From Parasitella parasitica (taxonomy: Eukaryota > Mucoromycota > Mucoromycetes > Mucorales > Mucoraceae), in the NCBI GenBank assembly GCA_025201805.1, contig MU619381.1:28410-52400 (forward strand): 23,991 bases of DNA. Reading direction: 5' to 3'. A model generated the notes under the pieces. The model had not been told where the DNA came from. It was given only the letters and a program-made list of their open reading frames with translations, and searched no databases. The translations under genes were made by a program, and so were the position numbers. This document shows positions 3,101-20,000 of this stretch, piece by piece (the first letter of the stretch is position 1; every line of letters starts with the position of its first letter).

Positions 3101-4663
3101 TTCGTTTCGAGGTTGGTCCCACACGTTTCGAAAAAATGATAAATCGGGAATATCAGCTCCAAGCCTTCCTGCGTTGGGCGGTTCCTGATATGCGGGATCC
3201 CATTCAATCATAGAGTATTCCTGCTCATGGCGATTGTGGTGCTCCTCCTGGTGATGGTCGCGGTGCTCATGCTGTTGAGCGTGGTGTTCATGGTGCGTAT
3301 TGCTATGCTGTTCATTTTCTCTCTAATACAGCGTATTAGGTCATCTATGTTTAGCTGCCTTCACATTTGACATACCTTTTCTTGTTCTTCCCGCGATTTC
3401 TCTTGTTCTTCCCGACGTGTAGTCTCTTCTTGGCGTCTTTGCTCCTCTTCTCGGCGTCTAGCTGCATCGTGTTCTTCTCTGCATCTAGCTTTCTCCTGTT
3501 CTTCTACCTGTCTTCTTCTTTCAGCTTCCTTAATCAGCCAGTCTGGCTGACCAATCGTAATTGATGATACTGGTGGCATCGGTTGGATCTGTCTGCGATG
3601 ATCATCCAAATCGATTTCCTGATTGGCCCAAGCGTTTGGTAAACTTTCGTCAAAAGATACAATAGGGTGTGTCTGAAAACCATTGTCAAACTTATTAGAT
3701 TCCCCAGAGAGTAGGTGGTATGGCGAAGTCTAGTGTATGATGGCTAAAATTAGCCGACTTGATTAGAAACAAGTTTCAACTTACCTGGCCGTAGTATGTA
3801 TCCCAAGTGTCCCACCACGCTTGAATCATATGCTTCGTACCTTCCCATGTGTTCCCTAATGGCAATACTCGGCCGTCTGCGAATCTCTGATACTTCCAAG
3901 GTTTATTTTCTCCAATAAAATGCACGATGGAGATGTTTTGGCCAAATTCATTTTGAGCAGGCGCATATCTGTTGTCATACAATGAGTAACCCCATTCAAC
4001 TTTACACGCTGTTATCCTACCCATATTGAGACGTCGGTGTGGTGTTGAATGTGAATGGCAATCTATTTGCCGGAGATGTGGGCCAAGAATCAAAGAAACT
4101 GTTCAAAAGCCCTTGATCGCCGCCTAAAGAAAAAGAAAAAGAAAAACTATGAGCACGTACGGTTGCCATCCTTGGATCATGAAACATTTACCATCAAAAG
4201 ATCCTTTATCGATAGCTAGCTGACATAATCCATGGTATATCGCATCGGATGGCTCAGTAACGAACACGCCACTATTAAAGCAATCGGGCCAGCCAGCATC
4301 AGGGGCAGCAGAAAATGACGGTCTTTCGAATAATTGATCTATGTTCAGAATTGGATATGTATCAGCATCCAAAAAGACGACTTTCTTGTATTGAGTCAAT
4401 TTCCAAAGCTGTATCTTGGTGAATGTAACGTCTAATTCTGGCCTACCAAGTAATTGGAGGTTTTTGTGATCTTCAGAGCGCAGTGTATCAACTTGGATAA
4501 CAGTGCAAATCTTTGACAGGATATCCTGAACTTGTCTCGAAATATTAGGTGTCACTAGACAGACAATTTCTTTCTTTGACCCAAGATCTCTTAATCTGTG
4601 GGCCAAGACAAGTGCTCCGGAAGCATAAGAATCTGTTGCGACTAGAGTCACATACGCTTCCAT
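162..4663 (-). CDS. Glycogenin (GT8 self-glucosylating primer of glycogen synthesis), very long form
   Basis: Glycogenin glucosylates one of its own tyrosines from UDP-glucose and hands the primer to glycogen synthase in the cytosol. Seven exons join in frame: 4663-4192, 4123-4021, 3968-3785, 3672-3376, 3322-2761, 2690-2456, 2382-162; the introns are 52-112 nt and the product is 1357 aa. The start is the first ATG in the GT8 frame (MEAYVTLVAT). Visible family motifs are the metal-binding DAD at residues 99-101, FNSG at 129-132, GGDQGLLNSFF from 158, candidate acceptor tyrosines 191/193 in SQYGYAP, and HFIGENKPW at 208-216. After the catalytic domain come an R/E-rich coiled segment (about 290-352), two His/Glu-rich blocks (about 353-388 and 541-590) on either side of a Pro/Glu region with FPWDNKP, and about 740 residues of Ser/Thr/Lys/Glu-rich disordered tail. 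The usual length is about 330-800 aa, so the tail is exceptional. The catalytic assignment is secure; the function of the tail is unknown. Confidence 0.93.
2599..2634 (-). repeat. Three tandem 12-nt units coding Glu-His-His-Lys
   Basis: The unit ttctttgtggtg on the plus strand occurs three times back to back inside glycogenin exon 6 and encodes EHHK repeats. Degenerate copies flank it on both sides, so the His/Glu block probably grew by slippage. Confidence 0.9.
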
Positions 4664-4874
4664 TTTTGCAAAATGTGTGAAAATATGGAAAGAGGCAAGG
4701 GAAAAAGGTAAACAAATGAAAAACGAGTTTATTTTGCGGCTGTATGTTTTTGTTGTGCCACAAGATATTTTATTACTGGTTGTGTGTGAACATGTCTGTG
4801 TGTCGGTAAGGCCATGTTCAATCATCCCATCAGAGGCATCTCACCTAAGGATCTCCGCGAAATGTTTTACCTTG

Positions 4875-9843: not shown

Positions 9844-10104
9844 GAATTATCCATTACCCCTTAACATGTCCATTTTGTATTGTTATTATTCTTGGCCCGT
9901 GCGGCTGCATAACACAAAATAATAAAAACAATAATAAGTGAAAAAGAGTTCCGATCAATCCATTCCTTGATATTCACCGTAGAGATGGATGATAATTGCA
10001 TATCTCCCCTTTTTTTTTCGTTTATAAGCCTTGAATCAAAATGAATCCTCACTCTTCTTTCTCTTCCCCCTTCTCTTATTTGAAACAAGCAATTTTTTTC
10101 ATAC
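8390..10104. other. 1.7-kb non-coding stretch upstream of the HHCC regulator
   Basis: I find no ORF with protein-like composition, no recognisable tRNA and no repeat of a known element. It is AT-rich, with an A9 run near 8616, a T9 run near 9062 and a T30 tract at 9810-9839, and becomes CT-rich just before the start codon at 10105 (actcttctttctcttccccc). It is far longer than the other spacers here, so it probably holds the promoter and a long 5' leader of the downstream gene, or an unannotated non-coding RNA. Confidence 0.5.
9810..9839. repeat. T30 homopolymer tract
   Basis: Thirty consecutive T about 265 bp upstream of the HHCC-protein start. Such tracts are common nucleosome-depleting promoter elements in fungi, but they are also a typical place for sequencing-length errors. 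Confidence 0.9.
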
Positions 10105-11472
10105 ATGAACACTGCAATTCCTTTATACCATCACCATCCATACTCTGGCTATCGCTTTGAAAACACATCCAGACTATACTCACAATCGACTCCCCCTGAA
10201 GATACCTTTGATGATGAAGATCAAATTCCATCAGTAGATGAATTTCGTGCCATTATTGATGATTATCTGAACAATCTCAGTCCTAAAAAGAGAGATAAGG
10301 CTCTAGTAGATCAGCATCGCTACTGTTTGATTCAGCAAGTCTTGAGAGACCCAAGAAATACAGCCATTTCAACTGCTCAATTCCGTTTTTGGGTCAAGAA
10401 GATGTTTCAGCTCCAGCCAGGAACAACCGATCTCGTTTGCCATGACAACAAACCCGTTGCTATGAAGGAGCAAATTTACGATATCTTGGTCAAAGCACAT
10501 AGAGAAGCTCATCATGGTGGTAGAGATAAAACTTCTGCTTTGGTCCGAAGGCGTTTCTCTTGGATCCCGAAAGAATTAGTTGCTCGATTTGTTCGACATT
10601 GTCCCTTTTGCATTACTCGTCGTAATAGTGGCCATAGCCCCAATACTTTGATATCCAAGAACTCAAGCCCTCGTTCCAGTCGCTATTCAAGACATGGCTA
10701 CTCATTTGATTCCAGCATTCCAAGTATCTGTACACCAAATTCTATTAAACAAGAAGACAGCGATTTATCATCCGGTCCTCCTTCATCTGATAGTGGCTAC
10801 GAAGCAACTCCGAATTATGTAACAATGTCCACTACTTCTTCACCAAGGAGACCTTACTTTAGTTCAATGTATGATAGAGACGAGCCTGATTTCCTGGATT
10901 GTCCTTATGATCCAACTTCATTTTCAATGAGCAACAGTTTTCGTACATCAAACACCCCATTAGCAGATCAACGCCAACAACACCACAATGTTATGCATCC
11001 ATTGACGCATCACTCTCACCCGCAACCACAATCACCTTTATTTTACAACCAGAATTATTCTGGATATCCATTTTACAGCACGGGTTATTATCCTAATGCA
11101 TTAGGCATTACACCATGTCAAGAGAACACGCCAACCGCTACAACTACCACCTCTAATACTACTTCAACGTGTTCTACTACTACTACTGCTACCAATTCTT
11201 CTGCCGCGGCTGTTGCCGCCGCCTCAAGCACTGCAGCAGCGGCAGCGGCAGCGGTTGCTCTAATGCGATCACCGGGTGTCAGTACAACAGACTTATTGTC
11301 ACATCATCATCCAGATCATTACAGTAATAGCAATGCTACACAGCAACACCATTCCAGCAGCAACAACCATTATCACCAGCAACAGCATCAGAGTCATCAT
11401 TCGTCAGCTAGTCACTTTGCGTCCTATCAACCATTGAGCATGCCTGAGAATGCTTTTAGTACCGAAATCTAG
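10105..11472 (+). CDS. Putative regulator with integrase-type HHCC (H2C2) zinc-binding domain
   Basis: Single exon, 455 aa. The folded part is residues 40-175: an acidic/helical start (SVDEFRAIIDDYLNNLSPKK), a helical block (YCLIQQVLRD, AQFRFWVKKMFQL), and a zinc-binding module in which H132 and H136 (AHREAHHGGRDKT) pair with C166 and C169 (HCPFC) about 29 residues later. This is the spacing of retroviral/retrotransposon integrase N-terminal HHCC domains. No catalytic DDE core, reverse transcriptase, or repeat ends are present, so it is not a mobile element but an apparently domesticated module, as in GIN1-type proteins. The rest is Ser/Pro/Gln-rich, with a Thr run, two Ala runs (about residues 366-388) and a His/Gln/Ser-rich C-terminus, composition usual for fungal transcription regulators. 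DNA or chromatin binding is inference. The long upstream spacer fits a regulated gene. Another ATG in frame lies at about residue 100; the first one is used because the conserved helices precede it. Confidence 0.75.
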   Translation: MNTAIPLYHHHPYSGYRFENTSRLYSQSTPPEDTFDDEDQIPSVDEFRAIIDDYLNNLSPKKRDKALVDQHRYCLIQQVLRDPRNTAISTAQFRFWVKKMFQLQPGTTDLVCHDNKPVAMKEQIYDILVKAHREAHHGGRDKTSALVRRRFSWIPKELVARFVRHCPFCITRRNSGHSPNTLISKNSSPRSSRYSRHGYSFDSSIPSICTPNSIKQEDSDLSSGPPSSDSGYEATPNYVTMSTTSSPRRPYFSSMYDRDEPDFLDCPYDPTSFSMSNSFRTSNTPLADQRQQHHNVMHPLTHHSHPQPQSPLFYNQNYSGYPFYSTGYYPNALGITPCQENTPTATTTTSNTTSTCSTTTTATNSSAAAVAAASSTAAAAAAAVALMRSPGVSTTDLLSHHHPDHYSNSNATQQHHSSSNNHYHQQQHQSHHSSASHFASYQPLSMPENAFSTEI

Positions 11473-11611: not shown

Positions 11612-11751
11612 NNNNNNNNNNNNNNNNNNNNNNNNNNNNNNNNNNNNNNNNNNNNNNNNNNNNNNNNNNNNNNNNNNNNNNNNNNNNNNNNNNNNNNNNN
11701 NNNNNNNNNNNNNNNNNNNNNNNNNNNNNNNNNNNNNNNNNNNNNNNNNNN
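11612..11751. other. Assembly gap (140 N)
   Basis: A run of N in the 3' flank of the HHCC gene, about 140 bp after its stop. The true length is unknown. Short frames that cross it are artefacts. Confidence 0.99.
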
Positions 11752-11973: not shown

Positions 11974-13992
11974 CTATATTACGTTGAATGTACTAATGCA
12001 ATCGATGACCCACTGTGGATCTCGGACTTGACATTGACTTAACCAACTAGGGCATTTCTTTTTATCACTGCATTTTATGACAACGGGCTCTTGTAGGTCT
12101 AATACGTTTTCATTTTCGTCAACTGAGCTGCCACGAGCAGGAGGTTTTCTAGTCAAGATTTTCGCTCCACCAGCTCTACATAGCTTTAGCAAATCATTCT
12201 TGTTGTGCTTCCCACTGAAATCCCCAAAGAAGTGAAAACGCAAATCTTGAAATAAGGGCTGATGTTGAGATTTCCTTGCTAGCATTGGTGCATGCGTCTT
12301 TCCAGTTAGATGATCCCCTTGAACTTCGTACTTTTCTTCTGGCTGCCATTTCTTTAATTTGGTGCTTTCAATCAACCCTGAAGAAAAAGAAGAAAAGTGA
12401 GCATCTATATTCATTTTTTCAAAAGAAAAGGGGCTCACATTTGGGTTCAACGATCCATTTGCCCTTGAGCACGCTTTGCAAATACTTGAGTGTCCTCTTG
12501 CAAAGATGCTTTTTGTCAACGCTAGTAATAACATGCGTTACGTCGTCAAAATTCCTCATTTCGTAATGAATGACAATCTTGAGCTTTTGGTCTGCCTCAT
12601 CTTTAATCTTTTCCAGCTTCTTTTCGTCTTCAGGTGTTAAACCTGTATATAGAATGTGGACCTCTCTGTGCCCTGCGCTATTGCTTCGTCTTCTTGTGTT
12701 GGGAATGGTCAGCGTTCCGGCTACTTGCGCATCTTCTTCTTCTGCAGCCGCAGTTAGTTGATAGGGTTGTTTGTTTGACACAGCGCTGTCATTAGGTTGC
12801 TGTTTGGTTATTCTTGGTGGGGGTGGCATTTCAGCAACTCGTTGGTTTCGGTACCTACGGCATATGCCGCATGTTTGCAAATAAGGCTTGTTTTTATAGT
12901 GGCATTTGGTGCATTTCCACATGTTCTAGGTACCACAACTTCAGTTTGGACAATGTTCGCCTGATATGCTATACTTACACTATCAGCATTTTCGTCCTCA
13001 TTATCAGAATATACAATTTCTGGGATGATATGTCTAATTTCGTTGTTGTCTGTGGCCAACTGGGTAGATTGAGACATTGGCTCATCTAGTGTCGCAGTAG
13101 TAAAAGAAGGTAGGGCTTCACCTTCAGAACTGCCTTCTGTAGAAGCCATTGCACTGTCGCCATTTCTTTGCGATTCATCATCTTGAGAAAATGTAAAGAT
13201 ATCGCCAAGAATGTTTTTGGGGTCCAGTAAGCGGGTCTTTTCGTTTCCACTTGTAGGTTTGTGATTCTGGCCTGTTGTCTGCATTTGCGCTGCAGGAGTA
13301 GTGGCAATTTGGCGGAAGCTATCATCGCACCCACTTGTATCGCTAGTCTTTGGTTTCTTTACGGTCTGAGTAGCGGTTTGAGACAAACCATCGTTAAATT
13401 CTCTCTCCAGATCATCTTCAATTGTGGCTGTGTCCTGCGTATCTACCTCAGATATTGGCCTTTTTCGATTAGATGCTGTTTGTAGCTCGTCCATCGAACT
13501 GTCATCAATTTGATACTCCTCCTCAGTTTCTGCTCTTTGTGATTCTGCTGTTTGCTGGTATGAATGATTCTTAATCATGAGTAGTTGTCGTTGGTAATCA
13601 AGAGAAACATCCAAAGGCGTAAGTGAATGGTTCAATAGCTTCGTTTTCAAGTTCTCGACATAAACAAGTATGTTCTCGAGTGTGGTGTCTGGCCGCAAGT
13701 GCTTGCTGTCGACAGGCTTTTGGCATGTTGGACAGACCGCCTCCTCTCTCAGTACTCGCTCGATGCATTTTCTATGGTTAACCAGGTTAGACTGTGCGTA
13801 GCTGTTGCACACATTTGACTCATCTTATTACAAGCAGAATCGATGGCCGCAGTCTCCAACGATTGTTGGTTGTATAAATGAAGCATCACTAAATTACAAT
13901 TAGTAGAGCGTTTCTTGGGGGTCATTGACCTCGACGTACCATATGCTACACTCTAAATACTCTTCAATCTTTAATGCGCCTTCTAGTATCAT
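11974..13992 (-). CDS. RING - RanBP2 zinc finger - tandem BRCT protein, BARD1/BRCA1-like
   Basis: Five exons join in frame: 13992-13940, 13888-13832, 13771-12979, 12925-12439, 12377-11974; introns are 51-61 nt and the product is 597 aa. Domains in order: a C3HC4 RING with C15, C18, C31, H33, C36, C39, C50, C53 (ECSIC, CGHRFCLKC, CPTC) close to the N-terminus, with a short helical segment after it; a disordered acidic Ser/Thr/Gln-rich region (about 100-300); a RanBP2-type zinc finger (W304, C306, C309, N313, C320, C323); BRCT1 from about 390 (ILYTGL, DVTHVI, GKWIVEPKWL); BRCT2 from 505 to the end (LFQDLRFHFFGDF, LCRAGGAKILTRKP, WVIDCISTF). RING plus C-terminal BRCT pair is the BRCA1/BARD1 plan. 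The AGG-KIL-RKP and W-IDC--F motifs of BRCT2 look closer to BARD1, but ankyrin repeats are absent. Such proteins are nuclear ubiquitin ligases in homologous recombination; a role here is inference. ATG 13992 is the only in-frame start I could place, leaving just 14 residues before the RING, so a further 5' exon is possible. Confidence 0.88.
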
Positions 13993-14391
13993 CAAATAAA
14001 TGTTGACTGATTGAAAGAAACACCTTCCGCTCCATTGATGAGCACGACCCTTTTTATACACACATCGGCAAATGAACGCGAAGTCCTGCAGCCAACAACA
14101 ACGGACGATCTACACGCAAATTTATGCCATTCAATAGCAGCTTTGTTCGAGCTGACGGACCCCAGTCAAGACAGTTTTATGTAGCTACTATATTCAAGCA
14201 ATTAGAATGGAATGCTTTTGAACGTTAACAAAGCATCTCTATGCATTCATTATTACATTGCACTGTTGATTTGGAAGGAAATTCAGTCACATTGCATGCT
14301 TTCCCCATATCACTTTAGGCAGGCCTTTTACAGATTCATACATGAACCCTTTCTTTTTCACTTTATAAAACATAAACAAGCAGATCTCGAA
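13993..14391. promoter_or_regulatory. Divergent promoter region between the RING-BRCT and Gid1-like genes
   Basis: 399 bp separate the two start codons, which point away from each other, so promoter elements are probably shared. The upper part (14041-14160) is less AT-rich than most spacers here. The plus-strand frame stays open from ATG 14212 to 14392, so the downstream protein could begin earlier. I could not define a TATA box or a transcription start. Confidence 0.5.
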
Positions 14392-14735
14392 ATGTCCTCT
14401 ATTCCATCGAGCTCCCTATCGAATGAAAATCCAGCGAGACGAATCCGAAGAAACCCTTCGATGCTAGCTTTAAACCAGCATTCTCGAAACGCACTCTCTC
14501 GTATGCTCAAACACAGAACTTATAAAGAGGAATTACAGGCATTTTACGAAAGACAATCCGAAGGCTTGTCTTCAATTCCAAATTATTTGAAAAATACTGT
14601 GTACGCTGAATTAGTAAAGCAACAGTGGATGATATATACAATGATCTGTAGTCCCCACAAGTTGTCTGCGAAAACGGCAACTATCGAATCGAATGGTCGT
14701 AACAGCAACAACAACAACGGTAACAGCAGTAACAA

Positions 14736-14766
<31 letters not shown>

Positions 14767-16881
14767 GGTAGGAGCAGCAGTAGCAGCAGCAGTAATAGTA
14801 GTGGTAGTAGCAGTAGCAGCGTCAATCTTCTACTTGATCCTCCTCGTTTACATCGAAGCTACAGCACAGTTGATTTATCGCAGCAATCATATCTGCATGA
14901 AGATGACGAGCAAGTGAATCACACCAACATGATTATTGATTCCATGATAAACGACATTCATCCTGCTCCTATTGCACAAGGGAGAAGACTGCCTTCAATC
15001 AAAGAATTTGAGGATCTACAAAAGCTACTAAATGGAGATTCATTCAAGTTGTCGTTAGTGATGCAGGATCTACGTCCTCCTTCTGCTTGGGATTTAAAGG
15101 CCAAAGGCGAGCATATTGATATCAGTAGTGATAACATGCAGCTCACGTACCGAGGTGAGATTAATTTTCAATGTGTTGTCGGCAATTGCTGAAGCAAAGA
15201 TGATAGGCAACGGGAAAGACGAGAGCGATGTTGCGTCTGCTCGAGCCAATTATGCAATGAGAAAGCAGTGCGGCATCTATTATTTCGAGGTTAAAATCAT
15301 TTCCAAGGGCGTGGATGGACACATTGGCATCGGGTTTTGTAGACGAATCAATAGTTTAGATAGATTTCCTGGTAAAATCAAGCATACGATATCATTTCAT
15401 GAACGCAAGCTAATACACACACACACGCACACACAAAAGGATGGGAGGAGCATTCGTGGGGTTATCATGGGGAAAATGGACATATATTCTCGGGCCCAGG
15501 CACAGAAAAGGCATACGGGCCCAAGTACGGCACTGGAGATATTATAGGGTGTGGCATTGATTTTAGAGATATGTCCGCTTTCTATACAAAGAACGGCATC
15601 TACCTGGGCACAGCATTCAAAAAAGTAAAGGACACTGAATTGTTCCCCTTTGTCGGCTTCAAAACACCAGGGGAAAAGATTGAGGCTAATTTTGGTGCCA
15701 AACCGTTTATATTTGACATTTACCAACTTTTGGCAAACGAAAAACGAGGATTATTAAACCGCATCGCTCTTAAACCAGCACTTACATCATCGCGATTCAA
15801 AGTTGTAAACAACTCTTTGGCAAACAACTTGGCGGATAATGTGGTAATGGAGTACTTGAGGCACAACGGATATCATAAAGCTGCAAAATCGTTGCAAAAT
15901 TCCATCCTACAAAAAGGCAATACACCGTCTGTAGATAATTTGGAGCCAAAACTGGACGCAGAGGCAATACATAGACAAGGTTTGGCTGTGAAATTATTAT
16001 GCAAATTCAATACTGAATCCTTTTGCTCAGAAATTCGTCAAGCTATTTTTGCAGGCAATATTGATCGTGTATTCGAGCTTTGTGACAAGCACTACCCTCA
16101 AGTATTACATGAAAACCCTATGATTTTATTCAAGTTGAAATGTCGAAAATTTATAGAGATGATCAGACAAGTGCACTTGCAGATGGAACATGCTCGTCAA
16201 GAGGAAATACCGCATGATGCAGTAAGAGAGCAAGACGATCTTCACGATACTCTTTTACACGAAGCACAAAGCCTCAAGGTGTCGGAAAACAGCTCGTCGC
16301 AATCAATTCCTCTCAAACGAAGCGCAAATTCACTACATTCATCAGATGCGCGTTATAGAAAGAAGAAGAAGCGAGTTATGAGAGAAGATTTGTCACTGTT
16401 TGAGACTGGGCTGGCTTATGGTATCGAATTGAAAAAAGCATACGCTCAAGAGTCCAAGACAAACAAAGCAGTTGAAATAGAACTTGAGGTGAATACAGTG
16501 CAATTTTTTATTTTTTATTTTTGTATGGCCACAATGGGACACTAACGCTAGGCAAAAATAAAGTCTGCTTCTTCGATATTGGCCTATTCAGATTTATCGC
16601 ATCCAAAAGTGGCTCCGTTGTTTGAAGCAAGACGAATCGAAACAGTGGCATCCGAATTGAATTCAGCCATATTAGGTAAATACATTCACAAACAACTCAT
16701 ATAGCATTGAGCGTAAACCACCATTTTAACAATAGTTTCTCTTGGAAAATACCCCAATTCGTCACTGGAACGCATTTATCGTCAAACGTGTGCAACCATT
16801 GAGGAGCTAGTGTTGTCAGGAAATGCAAAGGCGGCATTGCTCCAGCCTGAACGCGATTGCTTTAAATCCCTAGATGTGTAA
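14392..16881 (+). CDS. RanBPM/RANBP10-Gid1 type protein (SPRY-LisH-CTLH-CRA), subunit of a CTLH/GID ubiquitin ligase
   Basis: Five exons join in frame: 14392-15154, 15207-15371, 15440-16488, 16552-16675, 16736-16881; introns are 52-68 nt and the product is 748 aa. Family knowledge: Gid1/Vid30 and RanBPM scaffold the CTLH/GID E3 ligase, which in yeast degrades gluconeogenic enzymes. Domains: a disordered N-terminus with a Ser/Asn homopolymer (about residues 103-143); SPRY from about 235 (TYRGNGKD, CGIYYFEVKI, WGYHGENGHIF, GDIIGCGIDF, FYTKNG, FGAKPFIFDI); LisH at about 439-465 (VMEYLRHNGYHKAAKSL); CTLH at about 483-550 (RQAIFAGNIDRVFELCDKHY); a basic insert (RYRKKKKR); and a CRA-type C-terminus. 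The third splice junctions match SPRY conservation exactly (NSLDRFPG|W). The start at MSSIPSS is chosen because the upstream in-frame 60 residues (from 14212) look like leader rather than protein; this is uncertain. Confidence 0.92.
14699..14820 (+). repeat. AGC/AAC trinucleotide tract coding Ser/Asn
   Basis: Imperfect AGC, AAC, AGT and GGT triplets inside the first exon of the Gid1-like gene encode a Ser/Asn run of about 40 residues. The mixed synonymous codons suggest an old, selected protein tract rather than a fresh pure repeat. Confidence 0.9.
15416..15436 (+). repeat. CA dinucleotide repeat in intron 2 of the Gid1-like gene
   Basis: An interrupted (CA)n tract lies immediately before the AAAAG acceptor of the 68-nt intron 15372-15439, replacing the usual pyrimidine stretch. 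Confidence 0.85.
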
Positions 16882-17080: not shown

Positions 17081-20000
17081 TTACAAAACCCATCCAGGTG
17101 GAGAAAATATATAGACCATATCAGAATCTTTTAAAATCAAAGAAGGAACTGGATTTGCATAGACAAAAGGCAATTCATTTCCTAATTCATCATCAGGAGC
17201 ACGGAATAATCCAATTGCCAAGACTTCGTACTGTATCAACAGTGTTTTGAACAAGACTGAATAGTTGCGCCCAACAAACTCTATGGGCAATTGGATACTG
17301 GTGAGGTGAGGCGCTAAACGAGCAGCGGCACTAGCAGATGTAATTTCAGGAGTGGTGGACAAAAGATAGGCAGCAGAGCCGTCGTATAACGGTCCAGGCA
17401 TGCCGCACAACGTCTTGATAATAGATACAATATCAGGCTTATAGTATGTTTGACTGAGCAATACGTTGCTGATAAGACTGTCTGCAACAACATCGCCTGC
17501 TGCATAGGCTGGTGTGTAAAATACATCAATTTCCTCAGCTACGTCTTTTCCTTGCAACAGATGCATGAATTTAATGTTGGATTTTTCAACTAGTGTGTAT
17601 AAGTGATAATCCTAATAACATACGTGTTATAAACTTACTTAGGTTCACAATCGTATAAGCATCATTGGGTCTTTCTTGCAACAACAGGTCAAGGATATGG
17701 CTTGCCATGCTATTAAATATATTCATATGACGAGCGCAAATTTAGATTTCCAATGTTTCCACGTGTATCTATCGTATGCAAACTTACACAGCGGGACTAT
17801 CTGAATTGCGCTCATATTGGTCCAAGCATTCCTTCTCACTACATGATACGTAATTTTCGCGAGCATGAGTATATAATTTTCTATTCAAGACATGTAATTC
17901 TATGTTAAAATCACCTCATTACAACAACTTGCTTGGCCCTTTTCGCACCAGCTCGAAGAAGATCATCTGGATGTCTACAATTTCCCTGTATATTAATGTA
18001 AACAGTGCAAAAGTCCTATTACTTGCATATGTTGATACATACCTCCATAAAATATACCTTTGGAAAACTACTGATCAGTTCGAATATCTTTGGCGAAGGC
18101 TCCTTTGAACATAACAATACAATGTCCTGCAGCTCGTCTGCCTTGATGTTGGGCGATCTAAGGTTGTAGATAAACTTGAACATGTTGATTACTTCCCGAT
18201 GCAAACAAACAAGCACATGATTGCTCATCCCATCAGTGTCTTGTATAATAACATCTTCCAATCGAGCAGGCGTATCCAACAGGTAGCAAAGAGGCAATGA
18301 CGTGTCTTCCTCAATCTTTTCAGTCCCTGGCGATGATTTACCTATTCGCTTGATCAATGCTCGGCTGCCGGATAGGAGTGCATGGCGCTTTGAAGGCAGC
18401 TTGGAAACACTGTATGATTGATTTGTAGAGACATTGTTAGCGCTTCGTTGCGACTTGTAAGATCTGCAAGTACTAGTGGACGATGAAGAAGGATTTCGGT
18501 TAAAAGCGGCTGCTAACAGATTGTGTGTGGACTGTTGCAAGATTGTTGCTTCGCTAGCTTTGGATCCTTTAGGAATGCGTTGATCTTTGGTAGATCTGCT
18601 GGTGTTGACGGCGCTGTTAGGTTGTACATCATTACACATCGTGAATTGATTTGGGTTTGGCTTGGGCTGAATTACGTGCAGGCCTTTTGTTAGAATTCTA
18701 GTATTATGCAAGTAACATGCACACTCACCAGAGTTTGGATGTCCTGAATTTCTTTGGGCCCTTCTGCTATATAGACGCATTCATCTTTTGGTTTAATCTT
18801 GTACGAATTGCTAGGATTCAACAGTATCTCATAATCATTTTTTTCGGGCATAAATGTCTTGATCGCAAACAGGATGACCTGGGCTTCTTCAAACAGAAAC
18901 TACACGTAAACATGTATATGTACTTGTCAGCTATGAGTAGTTAAATTAGCTTTAGTTCATGTACCAATGCTGCTTGTCCAAATGTGAGATCCAGTATACA
19001 ATGCGGTGCTTTGCCAGTGTAGATCTCATTGCATGAGCCATCATCTACGTACGCATGAATAAATATATTGTGTGTAAACACATATTTGTACAATACTCAC
19101 CAAACTGAGCTTGCCATCCTTCATCGTACTGATTTATGGGCTGCCTTTGATGCAGTAGATTTGTCAGTAACGTTGATGCACCTCGACAACGGCAATTCAT
19201 GGCCAATAAATATTGCTTAAATTCACGCACGCAAATGATCTCTTTGGCAACTTTTTGATATACGGCTGTGCTAGGCGACAAATTGTATGTGTAGATGGGG
19301 ACATTATGGGTGACTGTATGACAATACAGAGACCATAGTCGAACTGTGTTTCTTTCGTCTTCTTTGGACGGCTCAGAGGCGTTCTGGTCTATTTTGTATG
19401 ATGTTCAGTTCAAACATTTATCAATCATCAAACATTAAAAACAAAAAAAAAAAAAAAACTTGCCAGAAATGGTAAAAATTGCTTCAGCGTATCTTGCTTC
19501 CTAAACACTGACCATTAGATGCTACAGACTTTATAAAACCAAAACCAAAAACTTACTACTCTCAGCAATGTCTTTTCATCCTTCAAACAAAATGGTTTAA
19601 GCTCATGTAATGCTTACATATACACGAGAAAATGCAACTTACCAAGACAGAGCCATGAAGAAACTGAACTCTGTGACCCCAAATCGAGTTTCTCTCCATC
19701 ATTTTCAGCTGCTCAGTGGGTCGGTTGATATCAAGAAAGACTACGCTTAGATGATATTCTGTATTTTCCGTGTTCAAGAATCCATCCAAAATCTCGACAA
19801 CCTGGTCTGGTGTAAAGGAACCAACAATCAAGATGAAAGGGGTTGTGCTGCTTCTACTAACATGTCCCTCACCCTCTATAAATTGCACCTTTGTGTTGGT
19901 GATACCATGTCCATACACTGCATATCAAATATCAACATCAACACATTACCTTTTCGTTTTCTTAGTGTATCTGACACATCAGTTACTAAACCGGGAAGGA

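Follow-up and report, generated by a model that had tools for sequence, protein, structure and literature searches.

A RING-BRCT gene of the BRCA1/BARD1 family and a candidate partner gene in Parasitella parasitica

Structure of the window gene and its product

The stretch of Parasitella parasitica DNA analysed here (23,991 nucleotides of contig MU619381.1; "the window") carries on its minus strand, at 13992-11974, a gene that we call the window gene. Its product, the window protein, contains a C3HC4 RING, a RanBP2-type zinc finger and two BRCT domains, in that order. The spliced model has five exons and a single open frame of 597 amino acids (aa), with ATG at 13992 and the stop codon at 11974. 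The four introns are 51, 60, 53 and 61 nt long, and all four have GT-AG borders. NCBI entry "hypothetical protein BD408DRAFT_447775 [Parasitella parasitica]" (P0001) was identical to the window protein from end to end; the same model was therefore reached by another annotation, probably of the same genome. A preliminary description of this DNA had given the same domains and a five-exon, 597-aa model, and splicing, Pfam matches and the identical P0001 bear it out. It had also placed the RanBP2 finger where ankyrin repeats would be expected, and no ankyrin family was present among the 21 Pfam families listed for the window protein at E up to 1. The features are:

13992-13940, 13888-13832, 13771-12979, 12925-12439 and 12377-11974, minus strand: the five exons (splice model and annotated protein P0001)
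13720..13950, minus strand: C3HC4 RING, about residues 15-54, across exons 1-3 (Pfam, fold model)
12860..12919, minus strand: RanBP2/NZF-type zinc finger, residues 304-323 (residue pattern, weak Pfam match, family conservation)
12328..12664, minus strand: BRCT 1, about residues 389-480, split by intron 4 (Pfam, fold model)
11992..12258, minus strand: BRCT 2, residues 504-592 (Pfam, fold model)

Relatives of the window protein numbered 15 by sequence search and 26 by alignment search, with many in common. The named fungal relatives came from nine genera of Mucorales (Parasitella, Mucor, Rhizopus, Mycotypha, Helicostylum, Backusella, Sporodiniella, Blakeslea and Gilbertella); the others were plant BRCA1/BARD1-type proteins and further sequences, including P0038, which has RING, ankyrin and BRCT matches. 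No Dikarya protein surfaced in these searches, which depend on shared five-residue words and do not show absence. The lengths of 20 family proteins, some of them partial models, ranged from 345 to 617 aa.

The RING matched Pfam zf-C3HC4_2 at 37.1 bits (cut-off 27; residues 14-53), and zf-RING_6, the BARD1-type RING, at 21.3 bits, under its cut-off of 35. The two BRCT matches were BRCT_2 at 36.1 bits (cut-off 27.3; residues 504-592) and BRCT at 27.9 bits (cut-off 21.3; residues 429-468). When the BRCT pair was used as query, BRCA1/BARD1 chains took ranks 1-40 of the best 50 Foldseek rows and the first 25 of the best 30 rows of a PDB sequence search. PTIP, MCPH1 and Brc1 stood well behind, so the pair does not belong with an unrelated family, the outcome that would have told against the preliminary description. 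BRCT1 has T395-G396, R445, T446 and K448, which we take to be the phosphoserine-pocket positions, as in BRCA1. The sequence R-T-[LMF]-K was kept in all 20 fungal-type proteins, and R445, T446 and K448 were invariant in a 20-row alignment that included plants and P0038. With these residues in place, the window BRCT pair would be expected to recognise a phosphoserine peptide.

The zinc finger fits W-x-C-x2-C-x3-N-x6-C-x2-C exactly in the window protein. This pattern was kept in 17 of 20 fungal-type family proteins (18 when Asn was relaxed; P0007 and P0008 fail), indicating that the finger is a conserved part of these proteins and that its fit to the pattern did not arise by chance. By eye, Phe or Tyr stands two positions past the second Cys in all 18 fingers found, and the residue preceding the last Cys is hydrophobic in 17 of the 18. 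These are presumably two of the three positions by which NZF fingers bind ubiquitin; the usual Thr of the ubiquitin-binding NZF surface is missing from these fungal fingers. Judged from these residues, ubiquitin binding by the finger is possible.

The middle of the window protein differs from that of animal and plant BRCA1/BARD1-type proteins. Animal BARD1 has ankyrin repeats there, whereas the window protein has one RanBP2/NZF-type finger. Plant BRCA1 and BARD1/ROW1 likewise combine a RING and two BRCTs with a lineage-specific middle module, which in plants carries PF13771/PF13832 (on P0015, P0031, P0034 and P0035) instead of the finger; we take this module to be the "extended PHD". Ankyrin was also not listed for the plant proteins filed as BARD1 (P0034, P0036). 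Thus, ankyrin repeats are not required of all BARD1 members.

Intron positions shared with human BRCA1 and BARD1

The introns of the window gene compare with those of the human genes as follows:

13889..13939, minus strand: intron 1, phase 2, in the codon of the second zinc Cys (C18); matches BRCA1 c.80/81 and BARD1 c.158/159
13772..13831, minus strand: intron 2, phase 2, in codon L37, which immediately follows the last Cys of C-x-H-x2-C; matches BRCA1 c.134/135 and BARD1 c.215/216
12926..12978, minus strand: intron 3, phase 0, in the linker just ahead of the zinc finger; no alignable counterpart
12378..12438, minus strand: intron 4, phase 1, in the Trp464 codon (T|GG); matches BRCA1 c.5152/5153 (codon 1718) and BARD1 c.1903/1904 (codon 635)

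All three introns that lie within RING or BRCT domains match both human genes in codon and phase. The human positions are those of published tables of splice variants: c.80/81, after c.134, c.5074/5075 and after c.5152 for BRCA1 (PMC7281099, PMC8266163), and c.158/159, c.215/216, c.1810/1811 and c.1903/1904 for BARD1 (PMC6877745). Expressed as codon and phase, they are 27/phase 2, 45/phase 2, 1692/phase 1 and 1718/phase 1 in BRCA1, and 53/phase 2, 72/phase 2, 604/phase 1 and 635/phase 1 in BARD1. BRCA1 residues were counted on printed alignments, with Leu22, Thr1691, Arg1699 and Phe1717 of a published variant table as anchors; BARD1 residues were counted on chain 8off, whose numbering in the BRCT region is four below human. 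For the BARD1 RING we used residue numbers that are in part assumed. The chance of three exact coincidences is roughly 2.5e-6, with about 810 sites and what we take to be about 11 human introns. The presence of introns at BRCA1/BARD1 positions on the RING side as well as in the BRCT favours one inherited gene. These findings indicate that the window gene is a real, conserved gene of the BRCA1/BARD1 family. The preliminary description is upheld on this membership by the BRCT matches and introns, and is not supported in its view that BRCT2 motifs resemble BARD1 more than BRCA1: the BRCT pair scores higher with BRCA1, the RING tends towards BARD1, and neither point is settled by the trees.

A second RING-BRCT gene in the same genome

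When the genome was searched with the window protein, a weak RING match (29% identity, E 5.5e-6) appeared on another contig, C82. The gene found there, referred to as the C82 gene, is a candidate for the second RING-BRCT protein that the preliminary description had proposed to look for:

G000:C82:141778-143106: RING-BRCT2 gene, seven exons, hand-spliced, 317 aa (312 aa with another acceptor)

Ten relatives of the C82 protein were found, of 251-352 aa: one in a second Parasitella genome, seven in Mucor, one in Gilbertella and one unnamed. Window-type and C82-type families co-occur in both Parasitella genomes, in Mucor circinelloides, M. velutinosus, M. ambiguus and M. bainieri, and in Gilbertella. 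Comparison of the two families by hhalign gave 99.7% over 107 columns, from late BRCT1 to early BRCT2, with the RINGs outside the alignment. Two sequences filed as Parasitella parasitica, P0001 and P0002, are only 74% identical by BLASTP, the same value as for the C82 protein and P0016; so low an identity under one species name means either two species or very fast evolution of both subunits.

The C82 family profile scored the BRCA1 RING at 55.5 bits and the BARD1 RING stretch at 31.5, and BRCA1 BRCT1 plus linker at 48-49 bits versus 19.7 for BARD1. Only two chains ranked above BRCA1, each by summing two RING matches. The single C82 protein gave 25.9 bits with the BRCA1 BRCT. The C82 gene has six introns, five of them within domains. 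Exact matches to BRCA1 are seen for three: the phase-2 intron of codon 28, which interrupts the second zinc Cys, the phase-1 intron of codon 169, and that of Trp195 (T|GG, phase 1). The codon-169 intron lies seven residues past the T of T-H-V-V, as does the intron at BRCA1 codon 1692. BARD1 has its nearest intron (codon 604) a single residue ahead of T-H, some 8 codons further upstream. The introns at codons 144 and 235 have no exact match, and the C82 gene does not have the second RING intron. Thus the C82 gene resembles BRCA1 more than BARD1 both in the fit of its family profile to the RING and BRCT1 and in the intron that it has in common with BRCA1 at codon 1692. It differs from animal BRCA1 in lacking the long middle region and in having a degenerate BRCT pocket.

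Helices flank the RINGs in the BRCA1/BARD1 heterodimer. Such helices were modelled on either side of the RING both in the window protein (P0001; residues 2-11, with low confidence at a mean predicted local distance difference test score [pLDDT] of about 60, and 66-82, about 78-90) and in the C82-type protein P0017 (8-22 and 75-95; model mean pLDDT 66). To judge from these sequences, the fungus appears to possess a BRCA1-BARD1 pair in minimal form.

Probable assignment of the two genes to BARD1 and BRCA1

We consider it likely that the window protein is half of a RING ubiquitin ligase of the BRCA1-BARD1 kind, made of two proteins; it would most probably be the BARD1-side subunit, with the C82 protein as the putative partner. 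The strongest new evidence lies in the intron match and the second gene; the paralogue label and all of the functional steps are the weakest points. The window protein shares with animal BARD1 the order RING, middle module, two BRCTs, as well as RING-loop spacing, predicted RING-flanking helices, RING and BRCT introns and the BRCT pocket residues. Zinc-loop spacing is 12 residues in the window protein, BARD1 chain 8off and P0038, and 11 in the C82 protein and BRCA1. In the RING tree (21 rows: 7 window-type, 6 C82-type, 5 plant and 3 animal-type) the window family grouped with animal BARD1 (72/57, weak) and the C82 family with BRCA1 (74/64). In both trees the BARD1 row is chain 8off, and the label plant BARD1 on P0015 and P0031 is our own. 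The RING, together with the BRCA1-type intron and profile match of the partner, is the reason for calling the window protein BARD1-like, a label that is probably right but far from certain.

Several observations weigh against this reading. On the window side, RING-loop spacing is 11 in plant proteins of both BRCA1 and BARD1 types, and it therefore discriminates poorly. The window RING retains Ile at a position that is Arg in BARD1 chain 8off, and several other RING families outscored BARD1 when compared with this RING. The finger (residues 303-323) scored 16.6 bits in Pfam, under the cut-off of 27, so that the RanBP2 finger described earlier as canonical holds by residue pattern and falls short by profile. 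On the partner side, the C82 gene was spliced by hand with one non-consensus donor (GTTGGT), chosen because it restores a Trp codon. None of its 10 annotated matches was identical to the model (best 74%), and the gene is thus not confirmed by annotation. The single C82 protein scored the RINGs of RNF4, COP1, RING2 and TRIM above that of BRCA1 (30.8 bits), and only the family profile put BRCA1 ahead of most other RINGs. BRCT matches of the C82 relative P0017 were under all Pfam cut-offs, and its fold model is poor. No PALB2 match was found, the PALB2 control likewise being without a match anywhere; a BRCA2 OB1 match was observed on contig C77. Finally, approximately unbiased (AU) tests rejected none of eight constrained alternatives.

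The last result leaves room for the view that a single ancestral RING-BRCT2 gene was duplicated within fungi, which would make both fungal genes co-orthologous to BRCA1 and BARD1. A purely fungal clade was not rejected (AU test, BRCT p 0.122, RING p 0.486), and the BRCT tree (25 rows: 11 of 20 window-type, 6 of 11 C82-type, 4 plant and 4 animal-type) grouped its four plant rows, one of them named BRCA1, at 97/92, showing that grouping by lineage happens. RING and intron features, however, match each fungal gene to a different human gene, and we regard a duplication within fungi as unlikely, though a serious alternative.

The roles of the two genes could also be the reverse: BRCA1 would then have its orthologue in the window gene, whose BRCT would read phosphopeptides, and BARD1 would have its orthologue in the C82 gene. 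The window BRCT pair scored 73.3 bits with BRCA1 versus 52.4 with BARD1, its inter-BRCT linker looks BRCA1-like in the printed alignment, and the pocket Lys is lost in the C82 family (by eye). The BRCT tree joined the window family to vertebrate BRCA1 (78/80, not starred), with the C82 family on a long branch. The tree comparison outlined in the preliminary description does not give the BARD1 grouping for the BRCT pair. RING-loop spacing, PDB matches and the weak RING tree point the other way, as does the C82 intron at the codon-1692 position of BRCA1, and a reversal of roles appears quite improbable.

Chance joining of a RING to an unrelated BRCT pair of the PTIP, Rtt107/Brc1 or MDC1 type, to which a weak RTT107_BRCT_5 match (24.7 bits, cut-off 27) might point, is very hard to reconcile with the Foldseek and PDB ranks and with introns at BRCA1/BARD1 positions in both RING and BRCT. 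A HOIL-1L-like ligase is scarcely credible: P0002, P0004 and P0006 bear the automatic UniProt name "RanBP-type and C3HC4-type zinc finger-cont...", presumably that of HOIL-1L, and the finger resembles NZF, but no IBR, Ubl or RBR was among the 21 Pfam families listed, and a BRCT pair is present instead.

A possible minimal ligase and its age

If the window protein and the C82 protein are BARD1-like and BRCA1-like partners, their RINGs would pair via the flanking helices, and the C82 RING (C-x-I-C, BRCA1-like spacing) would hold the ubiquitin-conjugating enzyme (E2). The heterodimer might then ubiquitinate a chromatin target near DNA damage. Recruitment of the complex to a phosphoserine protein would fall to the window BRCT pair, with its intact pocket residues, and the RanBP2/NZF-type finger between RING and BRCT may read ubiquitin. 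Two H2A genes of this genome (G000:C50, loci L037 and L038) apparently encode Lys at the K13 position and Gln at K15, have nothing matching K127/K129, have Lys near 119-122 and end in SQEL; these positions were assigned against human H2A as we assume it to be numbered. If the assignment is right, the signal in this fungus cannot be H2A ubiquitinated at K15 (H2AK15ub), the mark that animal BARD1 reads.

In the available part of Barua et al. 2024 (PMC11061109), BRCA1 is already listed among Fanconi-pathway homologues of early-diverging fungi; it is expressed in Lobosporangium transversale, and some conditions raise its expression in Mucor lusitanicus and Rhizopus delemar. That text has no occurrence of the word BARD1, and no pair, RING-finger-BRCT architecture or intron evidence. 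The accessible portion of a 2021 paper (PMC8483008) states that databases hold no fungal BRCA1. We found no report of a fungal BRCA1-BARD1 pair, the RanBP2-finger architecture or the shared introns among the papers listed in a search whose reach ended short of most subscription-journal papers and bioRxiv preprints. BRCA1 homologues of early-diverging fungi were therefore known; the candidate partner, the C82 gene, is newly located.

The data suggest that the BRCA1-BARD1 pair predates animals and persists, reduced to a minimum, in some fungi. If so, the pair dates from before the animal-fungus split, and a filamentous fungus would offer an experimental system for the ancestral core of a tumour-suppressor complex, free of the ankyrin reader and of the huge middle region of BRCA1. 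It would also be testable whether the module between RING and BRCT sets the chromatin mark that is read. More tentatively, and as something we hold possible rather than probable, the opisthokont ancestor had a complete, intron-bearing BRCA1-BARD1 heterodimer, of which Mucorales keep a minimal ligase (317-aa BRCA1, and BARD1 with an NZF-type finger that reads ubiquitin and stands in for the ankyrin reader) for chromatin with K15-less H2A. On this view, lineages could exchange the reader between RING and BRCT, with ankyrin repeats serving in animals, an extended PHD in plants and an NZF finger in these fungi.

Neighbouring genes

The window contains the following further features:

14206-16545, plus strand: RanBPM-like gene with SPRY, LisH and CTLH matches
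10084-11472, plus strand: open 462-aa frame with an Integrase_H2C2 zinc-binding domain (33 bits) and long low-complexity stretches
17081-19924, minus strand: exons of a Slowpoke-type calcium-activated potassium channel (Pfam Slo-like RCK, Slowpoke_C)
4124-4840, minus strand: glycosyltransferase family 8 exon, glycogenin-like by eye
11612-11751: 140 masked bases (N), downstream of the window gene

The 462-aa frame is possibly a domesticated gene derived from a retroelement. The RanBPM-like gene is divergent from the window gene, with an apparent start about 400 bases away, and a promoter region common to the two genes is possible.
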